The notes under the pieces were generated by a model. It worked only from the letters and a program-made list of their open reading frames with translations, did not search any database and had not been told where the DNA came from. A program made the position numbers and the translations under genes. This document shows positions 2 to 29,301 of a stretch of DNA of 29,302 nucleotides, one piece after another. This stretch comes from Bacillota bacterium (lineage in GTDB: Bacteria; Bacillota_E; JAJZYS01; JAJYTV01), in contig JAJZVM010000042.1 of the NCBI GenBank assembly GCA_021845645.1, forward strand, positions 1 to 29,302, written 5' to 3'. Position 1 is the first letter of the stretch; every line of letters starts with the position of its first letter.

Positions 2-349
2 AAGGTGCGGGTGTCGGACGATCCGGCCCCGAACCTCGCCGCCGGGCTGCCCGCGGGCGGCACGTCGCTGCTGCAGGCGCGCACGGTCAACGAGGTGGTC
101 AAGGCGCAGACCAACAAGGTGCGCCTCGCCCGCCTCAAGGGCGAGCTGGTCGATCGCAACCAGGCCATCGCCCACGTGTTCAAGCTCGCGCGCACCGAGC
201 GCGACGCTTGGCTCAACTGGCCGGCGCGCATCTCGGCGCAGATGGCGGCCCGGCTCGGCATGGACGCACACGCGCTGCACGTCGCGTTGGAGGCGGCGGT
301 GCGCGAGCACCTCGCCGAGCTCGGTGAACTGAAGGTCCGCGTCGATTGA
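2..349 (+). CDS. Phage terminase small subunit, 5'-partial
   Basis: The reading frame is open through the left edge, so the N-terminus, where a DNA-binding domain would be expected, lies outside the window; the GTG at 5 need not be the start. The visible C-terminal 115 residues contain the stretch LARLKGELVDRNQAIAHVFK followed by RTERDAWLNWPARI and an alpha-helical tail. This resembles the C-terminal half of lambda Nu1-type small terminases, which recognise the packaging site and hold the large subunit. Position directly before a GpA-type large terminase supports the call. The stop TGA overlaps the ATG of a mini-ORF (TGATG). Similarity is from memory of the family, without a search, so the assignment is likely rather than certain. 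Confidence 0.7.
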   Translation, partial: KVRVSDDPAPNLAAGLPAGGTSLLQARTVNEVVKAQTNKVRLARLKGELVDRNQAIAHVFKLARTERDAWLNWPARISAQMAARLGMDAHALHVALEAAVREHLAELGELKVRVD

Positions 350-420
350 TGAAACACATCCCTGTGTTTCACCCTGCCGGGCGCGCTGGCGCGCGTCCAA
401 ATTCGTTCCCGACGAATTTG
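347..420 (+). repeat. Junction cassette, copy 1 (three hairpins between TGATG junctions)
   Basis: This 74-nt unit lies between two TGATG motifs (347-351 and 421-425). It folds as three consecutive hairpins. Hairpin 1 has TGAAACAC (350-357) and GTGTTTCA (364-371) around the loop ATCCCT. Hairpin 2 has GGGCGCGC (379-386) and GCGCGTCC (391-398) around TGGC. Hairpin 3 has CAAATTCGT (398-406) and ACGAATTTG (412-420) around TCCCG. A second copy at 3070-3143 keeps all three loops and the whole central hairpin while both outer stems differ but remain paired. That pattern points to selection or copying at the RNA/DNA structure level. Function is not known. Confidence 0.8.
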
Positions 421-423
421 TGA
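349..423 (+). CDS. 24-codon mini-ORF coupled to terminase genes (cassette copy 1)
   Basis: The ATG at 349 overlaps the small terminase stop (TGATG) and the TGA at 421-423 overlaps the ATG of the large terminase (TGATG), so one ribosome could pass through all three frames by termination-reinitiation. The peptide begins MKHIPVF, contains GRAGARP and ends in PTNL. Copy 2 at 3072 encodes MQNIPVL, GRAGARP and PEVL with the same length. The core codons are identical even at wobble positions, so nucleotide structure rather than peptide function is probably what is kept. Whether the peptide is made or has any activity is unknown. Confidence 0.45.
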   Translation: MKHIPVFHPAGRAGARPNSFPTNL

Positions 424-2387
424 TGGACGACTTCGTCTACGAGGGCTTCGACGCCATCGAGCGCGCCTGGCGCGAAGGACTGACGCCCGATCCGCTGCTC
501 TCCGTCTCCGAGTGGGCCGACCGGCACCGGATGCTCTCCAGCAAGTCCTCGGCCGAGCCGGGCCGCTGGCGCACCAGCCGCACGCCGTATCTCAAGGCGA
601 TCATGGACTGCCTGTCGCCGACCTCGCCGGTCGAGCGCGTGGTGTTCATGAAAGGCGCACAGGTGGGCGCCACGGAAACCGGCTCGAACTGGATCGGCTA
701 CGTCATCCACCACGCGCCTGGGCCGATGATGGCGGTCTGGCCCACCGTGGAGATGGCCAAGCGCAACTCCAAGCAGCGCATCGACCCGCTGATCGAAGAG
801 TCGCCGGTGCTCTCCGAGCTGATCGCCCCGGCACGCTCGCGCGACTCGGGCAACACCATCCTCGCCAAGGAGTTCCGCGGCGGCGTGCTGGTGATGACCG
901 GCGCGAATAGCGCCGTGGGCCTGCGCTCGATGCCGGTGCGGTATCTCTTCCTCGACGAAGTGGACGGCTACCCGCTCGACGTCGAGGGCGAAGGCGATGC
1001 GATCTCGCTCGCCGAGGCGCGCACGCGCACCTTCGCGCGGCGCAAGATCTTCATCGTCTCGACGCCGACCATCGCCGGGGCGAGCGCCGTCGAGCGCGAG
1101 TACGAGGCATCCGACCAGCGCCGCTACTTCGTGCCGTGCCCGCACTGCTCCCACCGCCAGTGGCTGCGCTTCGAGCAGCTGCGTTGGGAGAAGGGCCGGC
1201 CGGAGACGGCGGCCTATGTGTGCGAGTCCTGCGATACGCCCATCGCCGAGCATCACAAGACCTGGATGCTGGAGCACGGCGAGTGGCGCGCGATGGCGCC
1301 GGAGAACGGCGTCAAGACGGCGGGCTTCCATCTCTCGTCGCTCTACAGCCCGGTGGGCTGGCGTTCGTGGCGCGACATCGCGAGCGCGTGGGAGAGTGCG
1401 GTCAGCAAGGAGTCCGGCTCGGCCGCCGCGATCAAGACCTTCAAGAACACCGAGCTCGGCGAGACTTGGGTCGAGGAAGGCGAAGCGCCCGACTGGCAGC
1501 GCCTGATCGAGCGGCGGGAGGACTACCGCATCGGCACGGTCCCCATGGGCGGCCTGCTGCTGGTGGGCGGTGCCGACGTGCAGAAGGATCGCATCGAGAC
1601 CTCGATCTGGGCCTTCGGGCGCGGCAAGGCGTCCTGGCTCGTCGAGCACCGCGTGCTGATGGGCGACACCGCGCGGGATGCGGTGTGGAAGCGGCTGTCC
1701 GAGCTGATCGACGAGACCTGGACGCACGAATCCGGCAACCAGGTTCCGCTGGCGCGCTTCGCGCTCGACACCGGCTTCGCCACCCAGGAGGCCTACGCCT
1801 TCGTGCGCGCCTGCCGGGACAGTCGACTGATGGCGATCAAGGGGGTGCCGCGCGGCGCGGCCCTGATCGGCACGCCCACCGCCGTCGATGTCTCGCAGGG
1901 CGGCAAGAAGCTGCGCCGGGGCATCAAGGTGTACTCGGTGGCGGTGGGGCTCGCCAAGCTCGAGTTCTACAACAACCTGCGCAAGAGCGCGGATGTGGCC
2001 GACGACGGCACCACGCCGATCTACCCGGCGGGCTTCGTCCATTTGCCCAAGGTCGACGCCGAGTACATCCAGCAGCTCTGCGCCGAGCAGCTGATAACCC
2101 GCCGTGACCGCAACGGCTTTCCGGTGCGGGAGTGGCAGAAGCTACGCGAGCGCAACGAGGCGCTGGACTGCTACGTGTACGCCCGCGCCGCCGCGGCAGC
2201 GAGCGGTCTCGACCGCTTCGAGGAGCGCCACTGGCGCGAGATGGAAAGACAACTGGGCATCGCCGCACCGCCCGAGCAGGACGAACACACCGTAACCGCA
2301 GAAGACGCCCCCGACTCCGGGGGCGTCGTCGTTTCGGGCCGACGCATCCGGCGCCGGTCCGTCGTCAAGAGTCGTTGGATGAGCTGA
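423..2387 (+). CDS. Phage terminase large subunit (GpA family)
   Basis: This is the DNA packaging motor: an ATPase that pumps DNA into the prohead plus a nuclease that cuts the concatemer. The product is 654 residues, close to lambda gpA. Visible motifs are the early LSVSEWADRHRML segment, a GpA-type Walker A region KGAQVGATE (about 77-85), a Walker B YLFLDEVDG (about 174-182), and a zinc-binding-like CPHC...CESC pair (C239, C242, C267, C270). The C-terminal nuclease part includes LALDTGFATQ near 440. I chose ATG 423 over the adjacent GTG 420 because it forms the TGATG overlap with the mini-ORF stop. No Shine-Dalgarno sequence precedes it, so translation probably depends on coupling. A strong hairpin lies near its 3' end. 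Confidence 0.95.
   Translation: MDDFVYEGFDAIERAWREGLTPDPLLSVSEWADRHRMLSSKSSAEPGRWRTSRTPYLKAIMDCLSPTSPVERVVFMKGAQVGATETGSNWIGYVIHHAPGPMMAVWPTVEMAKRNSKQRIDPLIEESPVLSELIAPARSRDSGNTILAKEFRGGVLVMTGANSAVGLRSMPVRYLFLDEVDGYPLDVEGEGDAISLAEARTRTFARRKIFIVSTPTIAGASAVEREYEASDQRRYFVPCPHCSHRQWLRFEQLRWEKGRPETAAYVCESCDTPIAEHHKTWMLEHGEWRAMAPENGVKTAGFHLSSLYSPVGWRSWRDIASAWESAVSKESGSAAAIKTFKNTELGETWVEEGEAPDWQRLIERREDYRIGTVPMGGLLLVGGADVQKDRIETSIWAFGRGKASWLVEHRVLMGDTARDAVWKRLSELIDETWTHESGNQVPLARFALDTGFATQEAYAFVRACRDSRLMAIKGVPRGAALIGTPTAVDVSQGGKKLRRGIKVYSVAVGLAKLEFYNNLRKSADVADDGTTPIYPAGFVHLPKVDAEYIQQLCAEQLITRRDRNGFPVREWQKLRERNEALDCYVYARAAAAASGLDRFEERHWREMERQLGIAAPPEQDEHTVTAEDAPDSGGVVVSGRRIRRRSVVKSRWMS
2304..2327 (+). 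promoter_or_regulatory. Perfect 10-bp hairpin inside 3' end of terminase gene
   Basis: GACGCCCCCG (2304-2313) pairs perfectly with CGGGGGCGTC (2318-2327) around the loop ACTC. It lies in the last 30 codons of the large terminase gene. No run of T follows, so it is not a convincing intrinsic terminator. It could slow ribosomes, stabilise the upstream mRNA end or be the remnant of an inserted repeat. Only the pairing is observed; the role is open. Confidence 0.5.
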
Positions 2388-2865: not shown

Positions 2866-3072
2866 ATGGCCTACACGGCGGCCGATCGCGAGGCGCTGGA
2901 GCGGGCATTGGCGCGTGGCGAGCGGCGCGTCACCTTCGGCGACAAGACGGTGGAGTACCGCTCGGTGGATGAGCTGCGCGCGGCCCTGCGCGAGGTGGAT
3001 GCGGCGCTCGCCCGCGAGGCGGGCCGACCCAAGCTGCGCCAGATCCGGGTCACCACGGGCAAGGGGCTGTGA
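2866..3072 (+). CDS. gpW-like head-tail joining protein
   Basis: This short protein of 68 residues matches the lambda gpW family in size and pattern: an N-terminal helix starting YTAADREALERALARGERRV, a beta hairpin with FGDKTVEYRS, then a helix DELRAALREVDAAL and a basic tail ending RQIRVTTGKGL. In lambda, gpW sits in the portal channel after packaging, stabilises the packaged DNA and prepares the head for gpFII and the tail. Gene order (large terminase, unknown, gpW, portal) supports the call. The stop TGA shares its A with the ATG of the second cassette mini-ORF. Confidence 0.88.
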   Translation: MAYTAADREALERALARGERRVTFGDKTVEYRSVDELRAALREVDAALAREAGRPKLRQIRVTTGKGL

Positions 3073-3143
3073 TGCAAAACATCCCTGTTTTGCCCCCTGA
3101 CGGGCGCGCTGGCGCGCGTCCAAAACCTCTCCCGGAGGTTTTG
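3070..3143 (+). repeat. Junction cassette, copy 2 (covarying stems, buried ribosome site)
   Basis: This is the second copy of the 74-nt unit, again between TGATG motifs (3070-3074 and 3144-3148). Hairpin 1 has GCAAAAC (3074-3080) and GTTTTGC (3087-3093) around ATCCCT. Hairpin 2, GGGCGCGC/TGGC/GCGCGTCC (3102-3121), is identical to copy 1. Hairpin 3 has CAAAACCTC (3121-3129) and GAGGTTTTG (3135-3143) around TCCCG. Compared with copy 1, both outer stems change on both arms so pairing is kept. GGAGG at 3134-3138, 7 bases before the portal ATG, lies almost wholly within hairpin 3 and faces the complementary CCTC. Confidence 0.85.
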
Positions 3144-3146
3144 TGA
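3072..3146 (+). CDS. 24-codon mini-ORF coupled to gpW and portal (cassette copy 2)
   Basis: The ATG at 3072 overlaps the gpW stop and the TGA at 3144-3146 overlaps the portal ATG, the same geometry as at 349-423. The peptide starts MQNIPVLPP, contains GRAGARP and ends PEVL. Ribosomes translating it must run through hairpin 3, which holds the portal gene's GGAGG. Translation could therefore expose that site just before reinitiation. This is inferred from the sequence layout; peptide production has not been shown. Confidence 0.45.
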   Translation: MQNIPVLPPDGRAGARPKPLPEVL

Positions 3147-4636
3147 TGGGCTTCTGGAGCCGCCTCAAGCTCGCCTTCGGCGCGACCCCCACCTACGACG
3201 GCGTGGGCGCCGGGCGACGCGCGCTCGCCTGGATGCCGGGCAACCCCGGCGCGGTGGCCGCGCTGCTCACGACTCAGACGGAGCTGCGCGCCAAGAGCCG
3301 TGACCTGGTGCGCCGCAACGCCTGGGCGGCCGCCGGCATCGAGGCCTTCGTGGCCAACGCCATCGGTACCGGTATCAAGCCGCAGTCGCTGATCGAGGAC
3401 CCGGGCCTGCGCGAGACGATCCAGGCCCTCTGGCGCGACTGGACCGAGGAGGCCGATGCCCAGGGGCTCACCGACTTCTACGGTCTGCAGGCCCTGGCCT
3501 GTCGCGCCATGCTCGAAGGCGGCGAGGCACTGGTGCGGCTGCGCTACCGGCGGCCGGACGACGGGCTGGCGGTGGCGCTCCAGATCCAGGTGCTGGAGCC
3601 CGAGCACCTGCCGGTGACGCTCAACCGGCTGGCCGACAACGGCAACGTGATCCGCGCCGGCATCGAGTTCGACCGGCTCGGCCGGCGCGTGGCCTACCAC
3701 CTGTACCGCTCGCACCCGGAGGACGGCCTGCTCGCGCCCATGTCCGGTGGCGGCGGCATGGAGACGGTGCGCGTGCCCGCCGCCGAGATCGTGCATCTGT
3801 TCCGGCCCTTGCGTCCCGGGCAGATCCGCGGCGAGCCCTGGCTCGCGCGGGCCTTGGTGAAGCTCAACGAGCTGGACCAGTACGACGACGCGGAACTGGT
3901 GCGCAAGAAGACCGCCGCCATGTTCGCCGGCTTCGTCACCCGCGACCAGCCGGAGGACGCACTGATGGGCGAAGGGCCGGCCGATGCCTCGGGCGTGGCG
4001 CTGGCGGGGCTGGAGCCGGGCACCCTGCAGATCCTCGAACCGGGCGAGGACGTGAAGTTCTCGCAGCCGGCCGACGTGGGCGGCTCCTACGCCGAGTTCA
4101 TGCGTCAGCAGTTTCGCGCGGTGGCCGCCGCGATGGGCGTGACCTACGAGCAGCTCACGGGCGACCTCACCCAGGTGAACTACTCCTCCATCCGCGCGGG
4201 GCTGCTGGAGTTTCGCCGCCGCTGCGAGGCGATCCAGCACGGCGTCATCGTCCACCAGCTCTGCCGCCCGGTGTGGCGCGCGTGGATGGCGCAGGCGGTG
4301 CTGGAGGGACGGCTCAAGCTCCCCGGCTTCGCCCGGGACGCCGCGCGGCGCCGCGCCTGGCTCGCCTGCAAGTGGATTCCCCAGGGCTGGCAGTGGGTCG
4401 ATCCGCAGAAGGAGTTCAACGCGATGCTCACCGCGATCCGGGCGGGGCTCTTGTCCCGCTCGGAGGCGGTGTCCTCCTTCGGCTACGACGCCGAGGACGT
4501 GGATCGGGAGATCGCCGCCGACAACGCCCGCGCCGATGCGCTCGGCCTCGTCTTCGATTCCGACCCGCGCCACGACCGCAACCCACCCGCGGCGGCCTCC
4601 GACCCGGTGCCGCCGCAAGACATCCAGGACCTCTGA
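3146..4636 (+). CDS. Phage portal protein (lambda gpB family)
   Basis: The portal is the dodecameric ring at one capsid vertex through which DNA enters and to which the tail is joined. The product has 496 residues, a usual length for lambda-type portals. Family features are the N-terminal segment DLVRRNAWAAAGIEAFVANA with IGTGIKPQS (about 50-80), the middle segment EIVHLFRPLRPGQIRGEPWL, and MGVTYEQLTGDLTQVNYSS with LLEFRRR in the C-terminal half. I chose ATG 3146 rather than GTG 3143 because of the TGATG overlap with the mini-ORF and because GGAGG sits 7 bases upstream. A protease/scaffold gene starts one base after its stop, as in lambda. Confidence 0.95.
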   Translation: MGFWSRLKLAFGATPTYDGVGAGRRALAWMPGNPGAVAALLTTQTELRAKSRDLVRRNAWAAAGIEAFVANAIGTGIKPQSLIEDPGLRETIQALWRDWTEEADAQGLTDFYGLQALACRAMLEGGEALVRLRYRRPDDGLAVALQIQVLEPEHLPVTLNRLADNGNVIRAGIEFDRLGRRVAYHLYRSHPEDGLLAPMSGGGGMETVRVPAAEIVHLFRPLRPGQIRGEPWLARALVKLNELDQYDDAELVRKKTAAMFAGFVTRDQPEDALMGEGPADASGVALAGLEPGTLQILEPGEDVKFSQPADVGGSYAEFMRQQFRAVAAAMGVTYEQLTGDLTQVNYSSIRAGLLEFRRRCEAIQHGVIVHQLCRPVWRAWMAQAVLEGRLKLPGFARDAARRRAWLACKWIPQGWQWVDPQKEFNAMLTAIRAGLLSRSEAVSSFGYDAEDVDREIAADNARADALGLVFDSDPRHDRNPPAAASDPVPPQDIQDL

Positions 4637-22773: not shown

Positions 22774-23529
22774 GTGGCGACTCAATCGACCATCGAGTGG
22801 ACTGAGCAGACGTGGAACCCGACCACCGGTTGCACCAAGGTTTCACCGGGGTGCAAGAACTGCTACGCGGAAGTGATGGCGCGCAGGCTCCACGCCATGG
22901 GTGCGCCTGGCTACGAGAACGGGTTCAAGCTCACCTTGCATGAGAGCCGGCTCGAACAGCCACTGCTACGCAAAAAGCCGACGACGTACTTCGTCAACAG
23001 CATGAGCGATCTGTTCCACGAGGCCGTTCCGGACGCCTTCCTGGATCGTGTGTTCTCGATCATCGAGCGCACCCCTCACCACACGTACCAGATCCTCACC
23101 AAGCGAGCGGAACGGTTACCGGAGTATTTTGCTCGCCGTGCCTGCCCGAGAAATGTTTGGCTTGGGGTGTCGGTCGAAGACAAGAAGTACGGTGTTCCGC
23201 GCATTGCACACCTGCGCAAAGTAGATACGCACATTCGATTCTTGTCCGTCGAGCCGCTGCTGGAAGACCTCGGGCGGATCGACCTGCGCGACATTCACTG
23301 GGTCATCGTCGGTGGCGAGTCCGGGCACAAAGCCCGGCCAATGCGAGAAGAATGGGTGGCGAACGTACAGGCCCAGGCCGAGGCCGCTGGTGCGGCATTC
23401 TTTTTCAAGCAATGGGGCGGCTGGGGTGCCGACGGTGTCAAACGCCACAAGAAGGCAAACGGCCGCATCTTCCGGGGCCGCACGTGGGACGACTACCCGC
23501 ATCAAGCGACGGAAGCGACACAGCTATAA
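22774..23529 (+). CDS. DUF5131 (phage Gp37/Gp68 family) three-Cys-motif protein
   Basis: The product has 251 residues. The N-terminus WTEQTWNPTTGCTKVSPGCK continues NCYAE; Cys20, Cys27 and Cys30 form the three-Cys motif resembling a radical-SAM-like iron-sulfur site. Other family marks are FVNSMSDLFHEAVPD, YQILTKRAERL, NVWLGVSVED, RFLSVEPLLEDLG, WVIVGGESGHKARPM and FFFKQWGGWG. Family members are common in phages and accompany TcmP; the reaction is not known. I chose GTG 22774 because GGAGG (22764-22768) is 5 bases upstream. It ends in a 6-bp tail-to-tail overlap with the TcmP gene on the other strand. Confidence 0.9.
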   Translation: MATQSTIEWTEQTWNPTTGCTKVSPGCKNCYAEVMARRLHAMGAPGYENGFKLTLHESRLEQPLLRKKPTTYFVNSMSDLFHEAVPDAFLDRVFSIIERTPHHTYQILTKRAERLPEYFARRACPRNVWLGVSVEDKKYGVPRIAHLRKVDTHIRFLSVEPLLEDLGRIDLRDIHWVIVGGESGHKARPMREEWVANVQAQAEAAGAAFFFKQWGGWGADGVKRHKKANGRIFRGRTWDDYPHQATEATQL

Positions 23530-24435
23530 CGTGTCCAGAATGTCATTGGCGATCTTCGTTGCCAAGCCATGTGCTTTGGGTGCTGGATTGGACGCCGCGA
23601 AGTAGAGCGCGAATAGTGGCGCTCCGCTCGGATTCTTGGCATCGCCGCTTTGATACAGAACCTTGGGGTCGGTGACGGCAGGAAACAGCCCCTTCAATCG
23701 CTTCGAGACAAACTGCAGCATCTGGCGGTGATCGGTGTTGCGCACATCGCCATTGTTGCTGCCGAACAGATCGGATTGCGGATTCTGGGCGTAGAACGCC
23801 TGACGCCATTCATCGGTGCCAAGCACGCGCGTCAGAGATGCCTCCTTGTCAGCATCCAGCGCATCCGCATTCTTGGCGGCTTGCCGATACAGTCCGGCAT
23901 ACGGAAACAGATACCAGACATCAACTGCGCCGGTCTTGGCAATCGCTTCCAGCGTTGACCATTCGACGTGCATTCCGAACGGATCAAGGAACAGCACGGC
24001 CCGCTCGCTTCGCCACTGGTATCGGCCGCAGAGGGTTTTCAATGCCGCATTGGCATCGCTCTTGATCACTTCGATGGTCTTGTCAGGGTATTCCGCACCA
24101 AGCGCATTCAGCGCGGCCAGCTTCTTGGTGCGGAGTTCGATAAAGTAGAACTTGTGGAACGCGGGGTTGGTGGCCAATGCCCTTCGCGCGGAGCCGTCGA
24201 CGGTTTTCTTCTCGCCCTCAACCTTGATGTCGCAACGGCCTGTACCGGCGAACGCGTCGATATAGAGCCGCGTGAAGCTCTGCTTGCTGAGCGCGGTATT
24301 GAATGCCACGAGGTACTTCTCAAGCGCCTCCAACTTGATGCGAGTCCAAGGCCCACCGAAGGAATGCTGATCGTCTAACTTGTCGAATTCGTCGTTGTCA
24401 AGCAGACTGTCGTCCCCATCGATCAGCTTTCCCAT
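23524..24435 (-). CDS. tcmP: Three-Cys-motif partner protein TcmP
   Basis: The product has 303 residues with methyltransferase-like motifs: GPWTRIKLEALEKYL early, RLYIDAFAGTGRCDI (motif I, binding S-adenosylmethionine) near 55-70, and VLFLDPFGMHVEWSTL (motif IV position) near 145-160. This order fits TcmP, the recurrent partner of DUF5131. I chose ATG 24435 because GAGGA lies 9 bases upstream; a TTG at 24471 and ATG 24450 are possible earlier starts but lack ribosome sites. It is the last gene of the leftward operon, following the helicase by 26 bases, while its usual partner lies convergently downstream. Target substrate is unknown. Confidence 0.87.
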   Translation of the reverse strand: MGKLIDGDDSLLDNDEFDKLDDQHSFGGPWTRIKLEALEKYLVAFNTALSKQSFTRLYIDAFAGTGRCDIKVEGEKKTVDGSARRALATNPAFHKFYFIELRTKKLAALNALGAEYPDKTIEVIKSDANAALKTLCGRYQWRSERAVLFLDPFGMHVEWSTLEAIAKTGAVDVWYLFPYAGLYRQAAKNADALDADKEASLTRVLGTDEWRQAFYAQNPQSDLFGSNNGDVRNTDHRQMLQFVSKRLKGLFPAVTDPKVLYQSGDAKNPSGAPLFALYFAASNPAPKAHGLATKIANDILDTL

Positions 24436-24461
24436 CGGGTTTTTCCTCATTTGACTGCCCG

Positions 24462-26519
24462 TCAGCCCCAAGCCGCGCTCATCAGCGTGGCGAGATCTCG
24501 CCGCGAGAGCACTTCTGTAAACTCGCGCCAGTCCTTCTCCGGCGGCATCATCGTGCCGGTGTAACGCAGATCAAAACCTGTCGCTTTCTTCTGGGCGTTG
24601 ATGTACTCGTCCAGCTTCTCACCGAGGGATTCGATGTCCTCGATCCATTCATCTTTGATGGTGTCGGGCAGGGACCCGAACAGGTCGTAGCGATTTCGCA
24701 TCCGCTCGGACAGCCGCTCGTAGATCTTCTCGTCCACGGTCTGCTCGAACACCAGGTTGAGCATGTCGACAGTCTCGCGCCTCTGGCCGAAGCGCTTGAT
24801 TCGTCCGATGCGCTGTTCCAGGCGCGTCGGGTTCCAGGGCAGGTCCACGTTGATCAGCGTGCCGAGGGTTTGCAGGTTGAGACCTTCGCACGCGGCATCG
24901 GTGGCTACCATGATCCGGATTTGGTGCTCGGCCACCATGCGCTTCAGGGTCTCGCGCTCCACCGCGACGCTGTCACCACGCTGATAGAGGCGGCTACGCC
25001 CCGCTCCGGCGTAAAGACCGATGGCCTCATCTGGATAACGGACCGCCAGTTCATCCGCGAGCCATTTCGCGGTGTCGTAGTACTGACTGAAGATGATCAC
25101 GCCGAGTTCGAGCCACCTCTCCTTATCCAGGAAGTGGATGACGGCCTCCATCTTGGGGTCCGCGTCGAGCCGTTGAAGTCTGTCGATGAGACGTTCGAGA
25201 ACTTCACGTTCCTCCTGCGTTTCAACGGCCAGGTCGGCTTCGAACTCGTCTCTCTCTTCATGCACGGCCTCCCCTTGCAACAGTCGTCGAGCTGTCGCGA
25301 GTCCGGCTTGGATGCTGGAGCAAATGCGCTGCTCCAGCATGTTCTTCATGAACCCGCTGCCCTTGCCGCGTTTGGCGAGTGCCTTGCCAAAGGCGCGTGC
25401 CTGGCTATAGGCCTCGCGGAAGTCTTCTGAAGTTCGAAGCGCCTTGCCCTCGAACAGGACGTCGAAGATCCGCGGTTCGGCCACCTTGGAGCGATCCGGG
25501 TGAATCTCGACCCCGACCCGCGTGAGCAGGTTCGCGTCTTCCAGCTGCTGTCGTTTACGAAGCACGACGTGCCTGACCAACGGGTTCTCACGTTGGAACA
25601 ACGTTGCTCCGGCGATGCGCCGCTCTAGTTCCTCTTCCAGGATCTCTCGCGTCTCCTCGGCGAGATCGGTCAAGGGGCGATTGGTTTGCCATTCTCCGTT
25701 GGTTAGCCCCAAGTCTTGCCGGATGGCCGAGAACAGTTTACGGGCACGTGGCTCGCTGGTGGACTCGACGCGCGGCAGCGGAGATCGCAGCAACTCCCAG
25801 GCATGGCCGGGGTCCAGTACCTCTTGCCGACCGGCCAAGATCTCCAGCACTTCATCGGGCCGATGCCATGCCGCCAGGTCATGCCCTAAGACGAAGTGGC
25901 CTCGACCTTGGTGCAGGATACCCAACAGGTCCCAGAGGTCTCTCGGATCAGTTTGGATGGGCGTCGCCGTGCCAAGCAACACATGGTCCGCACGGGCGGC
26001 GACTTCGCGCATGAACGCCAGCAGTTCGTTCGGCGTTCCTGCGTCCCTGCCAAAGCCTTGGCGCGTGCGCGCCTTGTGGGCTTCGTCCAGGATGACGACA
26101 CCGAACCTCAAGCCCAGCAGATGCTGCTTCTCCAACGAGTCCCGCATCATCAGTCCAGTGGACACGATGCCGATGCGAAGCGGACAGCGTGCAATCTGCT
26201 CGCGGCCCGCCGGAGAAATGGCGCGCTCGTCCGCATCTAGCCACACCTTGCGCACGGTGTCCCACCGCGCAGCAGGTATGCCGAGCTTGTCCAGCATCTC
26301 GGTCTGCCACTGCTCGGTGAGTGTCGCCGGCGCAAAGATCACGACAGGGCGTCGTGGCCCGTTTTCGCGATCAGAGAGCAGACACAGCGTCAATGCTGCG
26401 GTGGCCAGCGATAGCGTCTTGCCCAGTCCTACCTCATCGGCCAGCAACAGCCTCACCACGCCGTAGAGCCGGTGGTGGCGCAAACACTCGGTCAAGAATC
26501 CTTGCTGCCATGGCTGCAA
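24462..26519 (-). CDS. SNF2/DEAH-type helicase of defence operon (frame continuous with PLD gene)
   Basis: From the TTG at 26519 the product has 685 residues with a full superfamily 2 motor: ADEVGLGKT (Walker A, 27-35), DEAH (145-148), LLGTATPIQ (motif III), VIIFSQYYDTAKWLADEL (IV), IMVATDAACEGLNLQTLGTL (V) and RLEQRIGRIKRFGQ (VI). No motif is damaged. The first in-frame ATG is residue 75, after Walker A, so translation needs TTG 26519, a GTG codon near 26459, or readthrough of the TAG at 26529-26531. AGGGG ends 6 bases before the TTG. In related proteins the PLD domain and motor are one chain, so this is probably the C-terminal part of a split or interrupted gene. Confidence 0.85.
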   Translation of the reverse strand: MQPWQQGFLTECLRHHRLYGVVRLLLADEVGLGKTLSLATAALTLCLLSDRENGPRRPVVIFAPATLTEQWQTEMLDKLGIPAARWDTVRKVWLDADERAISPAGREQIARCPLRIGIVSTGLMMRDSLEKQHLLGLRFGVVILDEAHKARTRQGFGRDAGTPNELLAFMREVAARADHVLLGTATPIQTDPRDLWDLLGILHQGRGHFVLGHDLAAWHRPDEVLEILAGRQEVLDPGHAWELLRSPLPRVESTSEPRARKLFSAIRQDLGLTNGEWQTNRPLTDLAEETREILEEELERRIAGATLFQRENPLVRHVVLRKRQQLEDANLLTRVGVEIHPDRSKVAEPRIFDVLFEGKALRTSEDFREAYSQARAFGKALAKRGKGSGFMKNMLEQRICSSIQAGLATARRLLQGEAVHEERDEFEADLAVETQEEREVLERLIDRLQRLDADPKMEAVIHFLDKERWLELGVIIFSQYYDTAKWLADELAVRYPDEAIGLYAGAGRSRLYQRGDSVAVERETLKRMVAEHQIRIMVATDAACEGLNLQTLGTLINVDLPWNPTRLEQRIGRIKRFGQRRETVDMLNLVFEQTVDEKIYERLSERMRNRYDLFGSLPDTIKDEWIEDIESLGEKLDEYINAQKKATGFDLRYTGTMMPPEKDWREFTEVLSRRDLATLMSAAWG

Positions 26520-26528
26520 CTGCTGCCC

Positions 26529-26531
26529 CTA
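26529..26531 (-). other. In-frame TAG separating PLD and helicase domains
   Basis: Read on the minus strand the codons are CGG TAG GGG CAG CAG TTG CAG, with the PLD frame before and the helicase frame after in the same phase. Only this codon divides a 911-codon frame. A change of CAG to TAG would be enough to create it. It falls exactly at the domain boundary, leaving both halves intact. Confidence 0.9.
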
Positions 26532-27197
26532 CCGGGACAGCGGGGACTCGATCAGCGCGGCCGGCGCAAGGTTCTCGTCCTCATCAATCTCGTCGAAGAC
26601 CACTTCGCGGCGATAGCCACGGCGATGCACTTCTCGGATGACCGCCTGGGGCAGCGGCTTGGCCGCATTCCACAGGAAGTCGAACTCCTCCTCGATCCAG
26701 GCCACCCCCTCGGGGGACTCGTCCTCCCACAGGATCTCGTAGTGCCGCTGCCAGCCACTGCGGGTTTCGTTCATAGACCCGATGAAGCCGAGCCTGCGTC
26801 CGTCTGCCAGCGTGATCACCCCCGCCTTGCCATGCACAAAGCCGCAGATGTCGTCCGGTGCCACCCGCACGGCCTGGCCGTGCTGCTGTAGGAAGGCATC
26901 CAAGCGGCGGTAACGGTCACGGTGCAGGAGCGCTTCGGCTTCCAGAGCGCGCTCATTCCAGCGACCCAGCATCTTGCTTTCGCGCAACTGGGCTACCTTG
27001 AGGTCATCCGGATGGATATCGACGTTGCAGACGATCTTGACCTCGGGGATGCCCTCCAGCGCCTCGCCGGCCACCTCGAACAGGGAGCTGGTGAAGTAGC
27101 CGGCAATGCGCTTGTAACTGCGTGCGCCAGCCAGATGCTGCAGCAGGAAGCTGGCATCCAGCCGATGAGTGCGTGAAGAAAAGCGCCGGATGCTCAT
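26529..27197 (-). CDS. Phospholipase-D-like protein of defence operon
   Basis: The product has 222 residues: RLDASFLLQHLAGARSYKRI, AGYFTSSLFEVAGEAL and VKIVCNVDIHPDDLKVAQLR at the start, then the HKD-type site VHGKAGVI...GFIGSMNETRSGW (His and Lys two residues apart; near 120-148), and WIEEEFDFLWNAA with PLPQAVIREV later. PLD-fold domains in such loci act as nucleases or phosphohydrolases on DNA. ATG 27195-27197 lies 10 bases after the methylase stop, with GAGGG overlapping it. It ends at a TAG beyond which the frame continues as the helicase, so it may be the N-terminal part of one protein. Confidence 0.85.
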   Translation of the reverse strand: MSIRRFSSRTHRLDASFLLQHLAGARSYKRIAGYFTSSLFEVAGEALEGIPEVKIVCNVDIHPDDLKVAQLRESKMLGRWNERALEAEALLHRDRYRRLDAFLQQHGQAVRVAPDDICGFVHGKAGVITLADGRRLGFIGSMNETRSGWQRHYEILWEDESPEGVAWIEEEFDFLWNAAKPLPQAVIREVHRRGYRREVVFDEIDEDENLAPAALIESPLSR

Positions 27198-27207
27198 CCG
27201 CCGGCCC

Positions 27208-29301
27208 TCAGGCGCCGAAGCGCAGGTTCTTCAAGCGCGCGCCCAGCACCTCGGCGGCGCTGCGCACGTTTGGTTCCGTGGACTTGCGCTCGATGAAGGC
27301 CAGCATGTCCACCAGTAGAGGACGCACCTCCAGGAAGTCGGCCATCTCGTTCTTGATCTGTTCGACGATGACCTGCGGCTCGGTGTCCTTCAGTATCTGC
27401 TGCAGGGCAATGATGATCCGGCCCAGCTTGGTGACGCCGATCTCCGTGGACTCGGTCAAATCGCGGGAGGCGAACTCAGTCACGCGCTTGAGCCGCGCGT
27501 GATTGGGGCGCATGTCGCCCATCACGCGGCTGTAGTCCTCCACACGGAAGGCTTTGGCGAAATTCTGGTAGTTGTCCAGCTTGGTCGAACCGGTCGTCTC
27601 CATGTCCAGCATGCGCAACACGAAGCGCTCGATGCCGGTGAGCTTGGCCCAGGTGTCCGGGGCAAGGCCTTCGGGCACCAGCAGGCTCGACGCCGTCTCT
27701 GCCGCCTGTTGGACGATCTCGTCCACGACCGTCACTTCTCCGCGCGAGCGCGGGCGCAGAGCAAACGTCGTCACGTCCTCGCCGCCGATGTGGGTGTAGG
27801 CGGTGAGCACCTTGAGCGCCGCCGCATAGCCCGCCATTTGCAGGTCGGAGTCGTTGAACACCGGCTCGCCGTGATGTGCCCTCACCGTGTCGTTGAGGTG
27901 CATCATGGTTTCGATCTGCCGCGCCACCTCCTGCCGCACGGCAGGCAAGATACGCTGCTTGAACCCCGTGCGCTCGCCGGCGGGTCGCTTCTTGAGCATC
28001 AGGATCACCGTGCCCTGCACATAGCCGCCTTTCTTGAGTTCGGAGGTCGTCTCGGTGGCGATGTACCAGGCGGCCACCACCTGTAGGCCCGCCGCCCAGA
28101 AGATGCCGATCAAATCGCTCCACACCCCAGTGTCCTGGTGCGTGAACATCACGCACTGCAGGCCGTTGTCGGGCATGTGCTCGGCCATCGCCCGGTAGGC
28201 GGCCACCATGCCGCGCCGGAAGTCTTCGCCAGAACCCTTGATCGCCAGCGCGCGCCGGGAATCCCATACCCATTCGTCGAACGGCTTGGGCGGGTTCTTG
28301 CGCATCCAGGCGATGAAATACTCGGTGATTTCATGATAATTCACCGCGTCTGCATACGGCGGATCAGTAATGAATATCTCCGCGTTGCACTCAATCTCGT
28401 TCGCGGGGCGAGATTGGATTTGCACGTTCCTCGCAAAAACTTCTCTGTCCCGAAGCGTCATATTTCGGGAATGACAGAACACATAGCCACTTCGGGTAAG
28501 CCAATCGACGTTGGTGTCCAATGCTTGGTCCGTCATGGCGTTAAGCGCGGTAAGCGAGATGCGATCCCAGCGCACTTTCTTGGAGTTCCAGTCAGCCTGG
28601 CCACAATGAAGGAGCGCAAGGTCAGGCGTCCTCGCATGCTTCTTTATTGTCGCCATGAGAAGCAGATTTCTGGGTGTGTACAGATGATGCCAATGCGTCC
28701 AGCCGCGCGTGCGGATTAGCTCGTCTGTCTTGTCGCCCGGCTCAATGGTCATGTCCGGCACCAAGCCTTCTTCCTGCCAGCGGGTAAGGTTCTTGGCGAC
28801 GATGGTCTCCACCTTGCGCTCACGTTCCAGGTCCGCCTCGGTGGGCTCGGCAAACCAGGTCTCTTGGCGGGCGGCGTCGATCGTTTCCTTCTTGATCCAC
28901 TGGATGCAATAGAGCCGCTCCTGGAAGATGTCTTCCGGGCGCGGCTTGAAATCGTGTTTTTCCCAGCGGCGCAGCCGATTGCCCGTGCTGCCATCAGGCA
29001 GCCGATAGTCCCCGCGCAGGGTCTTGATGGGGGTGCGATAGCTCTTGCCGTCGATTTCGTAAACAAGATCGCCTCCCTGCACAGTTCCCTTCCTGGCCTC
29101 GCTTAGCAAGTCATTCGAGACGCCTTCGATGACCTTGATGTTGAATCGCCGATTAGCATGATCTGGTTCCAACACAGCGATGACGGCGCGATTCTTGGAA
29201 ATGATCCGGTCCTGGATCATTGGCACTTTCCAGCCTGTTTCCGGGCAGCGGGTTTCGAGACAATATAGATATGCCTTGGCCCGATTGCCTTGCTCGTCAT
29301 G
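27208..29301 (-). CDS. DUF1156-type adenine-specific DNA methylase, 5'-partial
   Basis: The frame is open through the right edge, so the N-terminus is missing; 697 residues are visible. A GTG at 29226 is only internal, since the preceding residues (YLYCLETRCPETGWKVP) are a typical zinc-ribbon-like part of DUF1156 methylases. Other marks are RTRGWTHWHHLYTPRNLLLM, the catalytic ITDPPYADAVNYHEI (DPPY encoded by 28354-28365, an N6-adenine motif IV), and FTHQDTGVW. It would modify host DNA and protect it from the linked effector. It is the first visible gene of the leftward operon; an ATPase gene (DUF499-type) would be expected to the right. Confidence 0.88.
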   Translation of the reverse strand, partial: HDEQGNRAKAYLYCLETRCPETGWKVPMIQDRIISKNRAVIAVLEPDHANRRFNIKVIEGVSNDLLSEARKGTVQGGDLVYEIDGKSYRTPIKTLRGDYRLPDGSTGNRLRRWEKHDFKPRPEDIFQERLYCIQWIKKETIDAARQETWFAEPTEADLERERKVETIVAKNLTRWQEEGLVPDMTIEPGDKTDELIRTRGWTHWHHLYTPRNLLLMATIKKHARTPDLALLHCGQADWNSKKVRWDRISLTALNAMTDQALDTNVDWLTRSGYVFCHSRNMTLRDREVFARNVQIQSRPANEIECNAEIFITDPPYADAVNYHEITEYFIAWMRKNPPKPFDEWVWDSRRALAIKGSGEDFRRGMVAAYRAMAEHMPDNGLQCVMFTHQDTGVWSDLIGIFWAAGLQVVAAWYIATETTSELKKGGYVQGTVILMLKKRPAGERTGFKQRILPAVRQEVARQIETMMHLNDTVRAHHGEPVFNDSDLQMAGYAAALKVLTAYTHIGGEDVTTFALRPRSRGEVTVVDEIVQQAAETASSLLVPEGLAPDTWAKLTGIERFVLRMLDMETTGSTKLDNYQNFAKAFRVEDYSRVMGDMRPNHARLKRVTEFASRDLTESTEIGVTKLGRIIIALQQILKDTEPQVIVEQIKNEMADFLEVRPLLVDMLAFIERKSTEPNVRSAAEVLGARLKNLRFGA

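Follow-up and report, generated by a model that had tools for sequence, protein, structure and literature searches.

We analysed a window of 29,302 nucleotides (nt) from a Bacillota bacterium (GenBank assembly GCA_021845645.1, contig JAJZVM010000042.1, analysed over its whole length), which contains a phage or prophage late operon with the gene order terL then portal gene, and in which two 74-nt hairpin units lie exactly at gene joints. Both units are very probably insertions of one family of very small, non-autonomous mobile hairpin DNA elements that are tolerated at such joints. The family is wide and largely unnamed, and is of the general kind of the repetitive extragenic palindromes (REPs) and miniature inverted-repeat transposable elements (MITEs), but it does not pass tests that define either. 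The copies at phage gene joints place this hairpin family in a new setting. Loci and genomes used for comparison are given by L and G numbers, and R1 is the covariance model used for genome searches. The features concerned, all on the + strand, are as follows (ORF, open reading frame).

5..349, +: upstream gene, without a Pfam match; small terminase subunit judged only from its position
348..421, +: copy 1 of the putative mobile hairpin element, 74 nt, where the gene preceding terL meets terL; R1 match 92.5 bits
349..423, +: 24-codon mini-ORF MKHIPVFHPAGRAGARPNSFPTNL, from ATG 349 to TGA 423; start and stop overlap the neighbours as TGATG
350..371, +: terminal hairpin 1 of copy 1, 9 base pairs (bp), loop TCCC; GGA on the opposite strand
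372..397, +: GC-rich middle of copy 1, with a fold that varies with program parameters (one or two small hairpins)
398..420, +: terminal hairpin 3 of copy 1, 9 bp, loop TCCCG
423..2387, +: terminase large subunit (TerL); PF05876, PF20454
2866..3072, +: small gene preceding the portal gene, without a Pfam match; gpW-like judged only from its position
3071..3144, +: copy 2 of the putative mobile hairpin element, 74 nt, with another stem subtype, at the joint before the portal gene; R1 match 84.4 bits
3072..3146, +: 24-codon mini-ORF MQNIPVLPPDGRAGARPKPLPEVL, from ATG 3072 to TGA 3146
3074..3093, +: terminal hairpin 1 of copy 2, 8 bp, loop TCCC
3121..3143, +: terminal hairpin 3 of copy 2, 9 bp, loop TCCCG
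3146..4636, +: portal protein; PF05136

An earlier sequence-only reading had described two equal-length units between TGATG motifs, and both were confirmed, at 348–421 and 3071–3144. The TGATG stop–start overlaps lie at 347–351 and 421–425 for copy 1 and at 3070–3074 and 3144–3148 for copy 2; because TGATG stands on both sides, the exact ends of copy 1 slide by up to 5 nt. The two copies are 83% identical over 80 nt and, as that reading held, share constant loops and stems in which pairing is kept, with the same terminal hairpins in both and the differences between them being paired changes. Its claim that the entire central hairpin is identical did not stand, as the middles differ (CCTGCCGG versus CCTGACGG). 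Its ATCCCT loop was right for the TCCC part, but the outer A and T are better read as a closing A–T pair, which becomes G–C in L006/L060. The open mini-ORF in each unit was absent from that reading. Compared with dinucleotide shuffles, both strands of both copies gave folding z-scores of −7.05 to −8.19 as DNA and −4.29 to −5.12 as RNA, and in each case 0/200 shuffles folded as well as the real units.

The strongest evidence for insertion comes from related phages. We compared TerL relatives in 80 loci from viral contigs and 80 loci from genomes, and portal relatives in 80 viral-contig loci. Empty sites, which the earlier reading had suggested looking for, were found at both junctions, with exactly 74 nt missing. 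The copy-1 junction is empty (...CGATTGATGGACGAC...) in L022 and L183, whose TerL proteins are 97% and 98% identical to that of the window, respectively, and the copy-2 junction is empty in L102, L001, L182 and L183. Both sites are filled in the window and in G001, only the first is filled in L001, and neither is filled in L182 or L183. Overall, copy 1 is present in nine distinct records (the window, L001, L004=L076, L006=L060, L007, L009, L011, G001 and G274) and missing from 17 distinct records whose junction is of the same kind (TAATG in the case of L182); the filled records were found partly by searching with the unit, and these counts therefore represent no frequency. Within the TerL searches, the unit was found at the terL joint in 3/80 viral and 0/80 genome loci, where a few contigs (for example, L210) begin inside terL and cannot show the joint.

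The window's copy 1 is letter-for-letter identical in L004/L076, L011 and L364; it occupies one and the same base position in two phage backgrounds, and the flanks around this identical unit are 85% (100 nt upstream) and 86% (100 nt downstream) identical to those of the window. On a junction tree of 27 rows, whose bootstrap is not fully settled, presence of the unit is scattered, and the filled or empty state needs seven changes, at least four of which are forced by well-supported branches, compared with 7.8 on average when labels were shuffled. From these patterns we infer that the two 74-nt units are insertions and that copy 1 probably moved alone, without its flanks; phage recombination may add to the pattern.

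Other phage copies are also accommodated by the genes around them. In L103, a 72-nt copy in the opposite orientation adds 24 codons inside the portal gene and is missing from both the window and L102. In L264 (75 nt) and L265 (72 nt), copies directly follow the ATG and the frame is open through the unit. In-frame insertion is seen against an empty homologue for L103, and is judged from the open frame alone for L264 and L265; a protein search with the L265 N-terminal extension gave two weak matches among four candidates. A phage or prophage copy in L256 (2397–2468) lies at an ATGA joint. Another phage or prophage site of the unit was noticed in L046 (4366–4435). Separately, a third and different unit subtype occupies one shared spot well upstream of terL in related prophages (L076 237–310, L182 1035–1108 and L183 1322–1395).

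The family extends well outside phages. Matches from blastn pointed to Klebsiella and Salmonella intergenic DNA with an identical or nearly identical hairpin 3, and a scan for the pattern added two more phage contigs. The 23 nt of copy 1 hairpin 3 are identical in L012, Klebsiella DNA between ndk and rlmN. We aligned seven sequences with MAFFT (both window copies, L060, L264, L265, Salmonella and E. coli), leaving out the Klebsiella row, in which MAFFT misplaced a gap. Within this alignment, 11/18 pairs were changed on both sides and 97.6% of cells were paired, a value reached by 0/500 shuffles; shifting the partner by one base reduced pairing to 36–48%. Across 98 distinct copies, in an alignment fitted to the model, there were 456 double-change cells versus 134 after shuffling. 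A covariance model and genome searches, as proposed in the earlier reading, gave further copies in many proteobacteria and some phages, often many per genome, and covariation beyond the original two copies. R1 matched 22/38 genomes carrying a TerL relative at E ≤ 0.1 (best E < 1e-7 in 18), with most matches in Methylocaldum (52), a Rhodanobacter metagenome-assembled genome (29) and Methylococcus capsulatus Texas (15). At E ≤ 0.001, R1 matched 29/38 genomes of the G272 family, with up to 64 copies per genome, and 56/78 genomes of the G306 family, with up to 41 copies (under stricter filters). A chromosomal subtype in Methylocaldum (ATGAAAAACATCC...; L307, L308, L310, L312 and L333) looks closest to the window copies, and could possibly be a source pool for the phage insertions.

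We read 111 matches, 98 of them distinct, in 80 fetched stretches. The typical unit has a left hairpin, a GC-rich middle and a right hairpin, with stems that change with compensation and loops that are nearly fixed: TCC is present in the left loop of 92/98 and in the right loop of 94/98 distinct copies. Units are 45–91 nt long, most commonly 72. Among the three bases before the unit T is the commonest, and the left flank tends to have T as its last letter; a C or G follows the unit at 90/98 sites. Exact tandem arrays occur in L344 and L383, a unit is nested in another unit in L331, and units lie in CGTC-like hairpins in L315 and L329. Seven checked stretches have a GGGATT/CGAACC-type setting, of which six have a nearby tRNA-Ser gene and one (L375) a tRNA-Glu gene.

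The earlier reading had suggested a structured-RNA element that fitted no described family. Covariation demonstrates conserved hairpins, but copies lie in both orientations relative to genes, so a DNA hairpin fits at least as well as a structured RNA. The statement on described families is nearly right. No Rfam family scored above its gathering threshold, either in the whole window or, apart from two tRNA genes beside copies, in nine loci, and we found no paper naming the element in a literature search outside which most subscription journals lay. However, the E. coli relatives are the insert found inside enterobacterial repetitive intergenic consensus (ERIC) repeats.

In four E. coli loci (L266 and L402–L404), the unit lies inside ERIC between GGGGAT and TCACTC, and the ERIC in L267 is empty at this position. 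Matches were present in 604/5426 E. coli genomes. The Klebsiella copy in L012 is ERIC-hosted, that in Salmonella L013 is only partly ERIC-like, that in Klebsiella plasmid L405 is not in ERIC at all, and Salmonella plasmid L406 uses a second internal ERIC position, in the ybtA–ybtP gap. Inserts of some 70 bp at particular positions in ERIC were reportedly described by Wilson and Sharp (2006). The unit is homologous to this insert in both terminal hairpins and in length, with E. coli and Salmonella inserts that align over their full length and share the covarying hairpins, and the exact ERIC position and a matching empty ERIC are known. Unlike the insert, the window copies are free-standing at phage gene joints, and the family reaches well beyond enterobacteria. 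The window units are themselves not ERIC, which, by the consensus in PMC2759123, is a 127-bp imperfect palindrome with TATA-type ends: a search for ERIC around the two copies gave consensus scores of 10 and 9, versus shuffled means of 9.5 and 9.3.

Two other repeat classes bear comparison. Rickettsia palindromic elements (RPEs) are palindromic DNA of 105–146 bp lying in frame inside genes, according to PMC2229807. The unit shares in-frame insertion with them (L103), but RPEs are longer and the unit also occurs at gene joints and in phages; this likeness is drawn from the description of RPEs. MITEs such as ERIC, Correia and YPAL are likewise non-autonomous and multicopy with exact empty sites, but the unit has no terminal inverted repeats and no general target duplication. 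A classical MITE was rejected on these grounds: inverted-end matches averaged 2.49 per 10 versus 2.44 with permutation, and 78/98 sites have no bounding repeat of at least 3 nt, as with permuted flanks (77%). Insertion into the loops of older hairpins was also rejected as a general rule; flanks pair over at least 7 bp at 9/92 sites (permuted mean 2.7, maximum 7 in 200), which is real for some sites (L315 and L329) but not for the family.

Among other explanations, the boldest lead is a binding module for the RNA-binding protein CsrA or its Rsm relatives, which we regard as unlikely. Here, once transcribed from the GGA strand, the terminal hairpins would capture the CsrA dimer and so titrate the protein, or else control the adjacent mRNA, with mobility spreading the sites. 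Hairpin 1 of the GGA strand forms a C[ANGGAN]G hexaloop on a stem; ANGGAN is a high-affinity loop for RsmE (PMC4005645), and the CsrA consensus from systematic evolution of ligands by exponential enrichment (SELEX), RUACARGGAUGU (PMC7652899), is close to it. The motif CANGGANG occurs in 73/98 distinct copies, compared with a mean of 4.25 over 20 rounds of dinucleotide shuffling, and in 0/98 on the other strand, a contrast that is partly built in, as the model scores the loop. One tandem array (L383) scores 40.6 bits against Rfam rsmX, whose threshold is 56. All 10 of the 38 genomes with at least four copies (E ≤ 0.1) have CsrA, and none of the 19 without CsrA has more than two.

Several observations speak against such a module. 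GGA is on the non-mRNA strand in both window copies. Based on rough gene calls made with a simple codon-position score, chromosomal copies between co-directional genes were GGA-sense in 12 cases and TCC-sense in 22, and copies inside ORFs were GGA-sense in 19 and TCC-sense in 13, with no clear bias. The correlation with CsrA follows taxonomy, and nine of the 19 CsrA-bearing genomes among the 38 have no copy or one. The stems of the unit are long, and the SELEX work (PMC7652899) says that long stems may disfavour CsrA binding; hairpin 3 loops mostly have no leading A. Three genomes (L344, L380 and G277 C25) have copies no more than about 1 kb from csrA, but this proximity may stem from a tRNA-Ser gene between or beside them (L344 and L380). 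The unit resembles the Csr/Rsm small RNAs (rsmX and CsrB) in its GGA-loop hairpins and in the weak rsmX match of one array, but that array is below the Rfam threshold and the unit is known here from sequence alone. A 'nomadic CsrA site', that is, a mobile element of about 72 nt whose GGA-strand hairpins are putative CsrA/RsmE ligands and which would move among chromosomes, ERIC repeats, tRNA-Ser flanks and phage operons, is a speculative and unlikely extension. If true, it would rewire or titrate the Csr network, with dozens of copies together acting as a dispersed sponge; the near-fixed GGA loops make the link to Csr directly testable.

It is quite unlikely that the unit is a REP-type palindrome, either a GTAG REP or REPIN (REP doublet forming a hairpin) moved by a REP-associated tyrosine transposase (RAYT), or a CGTC REP. 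Like these, the unit is small, hairpinned and multicopy, forms dimers and arrays and has no gene of its own. In 54/98 copies hairpin 3 is immediately preceded by TGTC or CGTC, close to the CGTC tag, and many copies have YGTC before a 9-bp stem with a 5-nt loop, but this tag is internal to the unit. The CGTC-tagged family is said in PMC3733652 to have no dedicated transposase. On the other side, GTAG/CTAC is near an end at 1/98 sites, and a plain GTAG REP was rejected; the tail is not CCA, which directly follows hairpin 3 at 2/98 sites; and the empty sites indicate that two or more hairpins are gained or lost as one unit. No RAYT association was seen. We sought Y1 transposases (PF01797) in nine genomes, seven of which have a Y1 gene, and 0/18 Y1 loci had an R1 match within up to 1.5 kb, and a RAYT/Y1 transposase as the mover was rejected on the basis of these 18 loci. 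No TCC-loop hairpin of at least 7 bp was near the gene at 16/18 Y1 loci; L389 has one and L401 has nine of another type. The latter are short ATCC-loop hairpins (GTCGGCA-ATCCNT-TGCCGAC and alike) around the L401 Y1 locus, perhaps a REP–RAYT set with loops like those of the hairpin element.

We give little probability to a translational device useful to the phage, in which the mini-ORF would couple terL or the portal gene to the gene upstream of it and so tune the ratio between them. The copies at the two junctions do keep a 24-codon frame open between flanking TGATG motifs (the two in the window and 14 occurrences in fetched loci, some of which are the same record). However, most related phages do without the unit, none being found at the joint in 77/80 viral and 80/80 genome loci of the TerL searches, and the family also turns up within ERIC, next to tRNA genes and elsewhere in chromosomes, where such a role does not exist. 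The earlier reading had left the units as 'mobile or duplicated': mobility is favoured by the empty sites, the identical unit in diverged backgrounds and the many chromosomal copies, whereas an old duplication inside the operon, followed by loss from many phages or by copying through gene conversion, is highly improbable, because although both copies are in one operon of one phage group, the two sites have different stem subtypes and are occupied independently, the identical unit has diverged flanks and similar subtypes exist in the Methylocaldum chromosome (L307, L308, L310 and L312).

Insertion of a mobile hairpin element, our preferred reading, could proceed as follows. An enzyme encoded elsewhere would recognise the hairpins, most likely as single-stranded DNA, cut after T and insert the unit without duplicating the target; this enzyme may be of the HUH type, a possibility we rate well below even. 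At T^GATG, the unit's own 5′ GATG and 3′ T would rebuild TGATG on both sides, and, being open as a 25-codon frame (stop included), the unit would let translation continue from one gene into the next. For copies within genes, lengths that are multiples of three would keep the frame. Selection in phage structural operons would keep only harmless insertions, and placement at stop–start joints would reflect this selection rather than targeting, because the chromosomal sites are varied.

Several observations weigh against this reading. Movement itself is read from filled and empty sites and was never observed, and junctions could also be moved by recombination between phages. The search for a mobilising enzyme, which covered the 18 Y1 loci above, found none. 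The family is patchy: within the order of G001 (117 genomes), R1 found two strong copies in G001 and only weak matches in four others, leaving 116/117 genomes without a strong match. A search of a named phage collection gave no full copy; with copy 1 as query, 0/27 matching records cover 80% of the query, and with the consensus there was no match. Direct repeats of 4–6 nt bound 11/98 sites versus about 5.7 with permuted flanks, and target duplication is thus not fully excluded; 6-nt repeats bound four sites versus about 0.15, three of them being CTTTGG...CTTTGG in Methylocaldum, and the window's own TGATG pair can be read as a 5-nt duplication. The small excess of 4–6 nt repeats at the unit's ends and the failure to find full copies among named phages slightly lower our confidence in this reading.

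Some proteobacterial genomes appear to carry tens of copies of a tiny hairpin element that is outside every Rfam family and that can enter essential phage operons without breaking them. Finding the enzyme would explain the ERIC insert and could provide a very small insertion tool.

Elsewhere in the window, a likely defence cluster adjoins the phage genes on the minus strand (23524–29226), with PADLOC matches to PDC-M41A, PLD_Helicase and DUF1156_MTase, and a DUF5131 gene (22774–23529) adjoins this cluster. At 26519–26532 (minus strand), two neighbouring ORFs match positions 1–220 and 225–905, respectively, of the 905-position PLD_Helicase model, and the matching gene here is either split or represents two genes.

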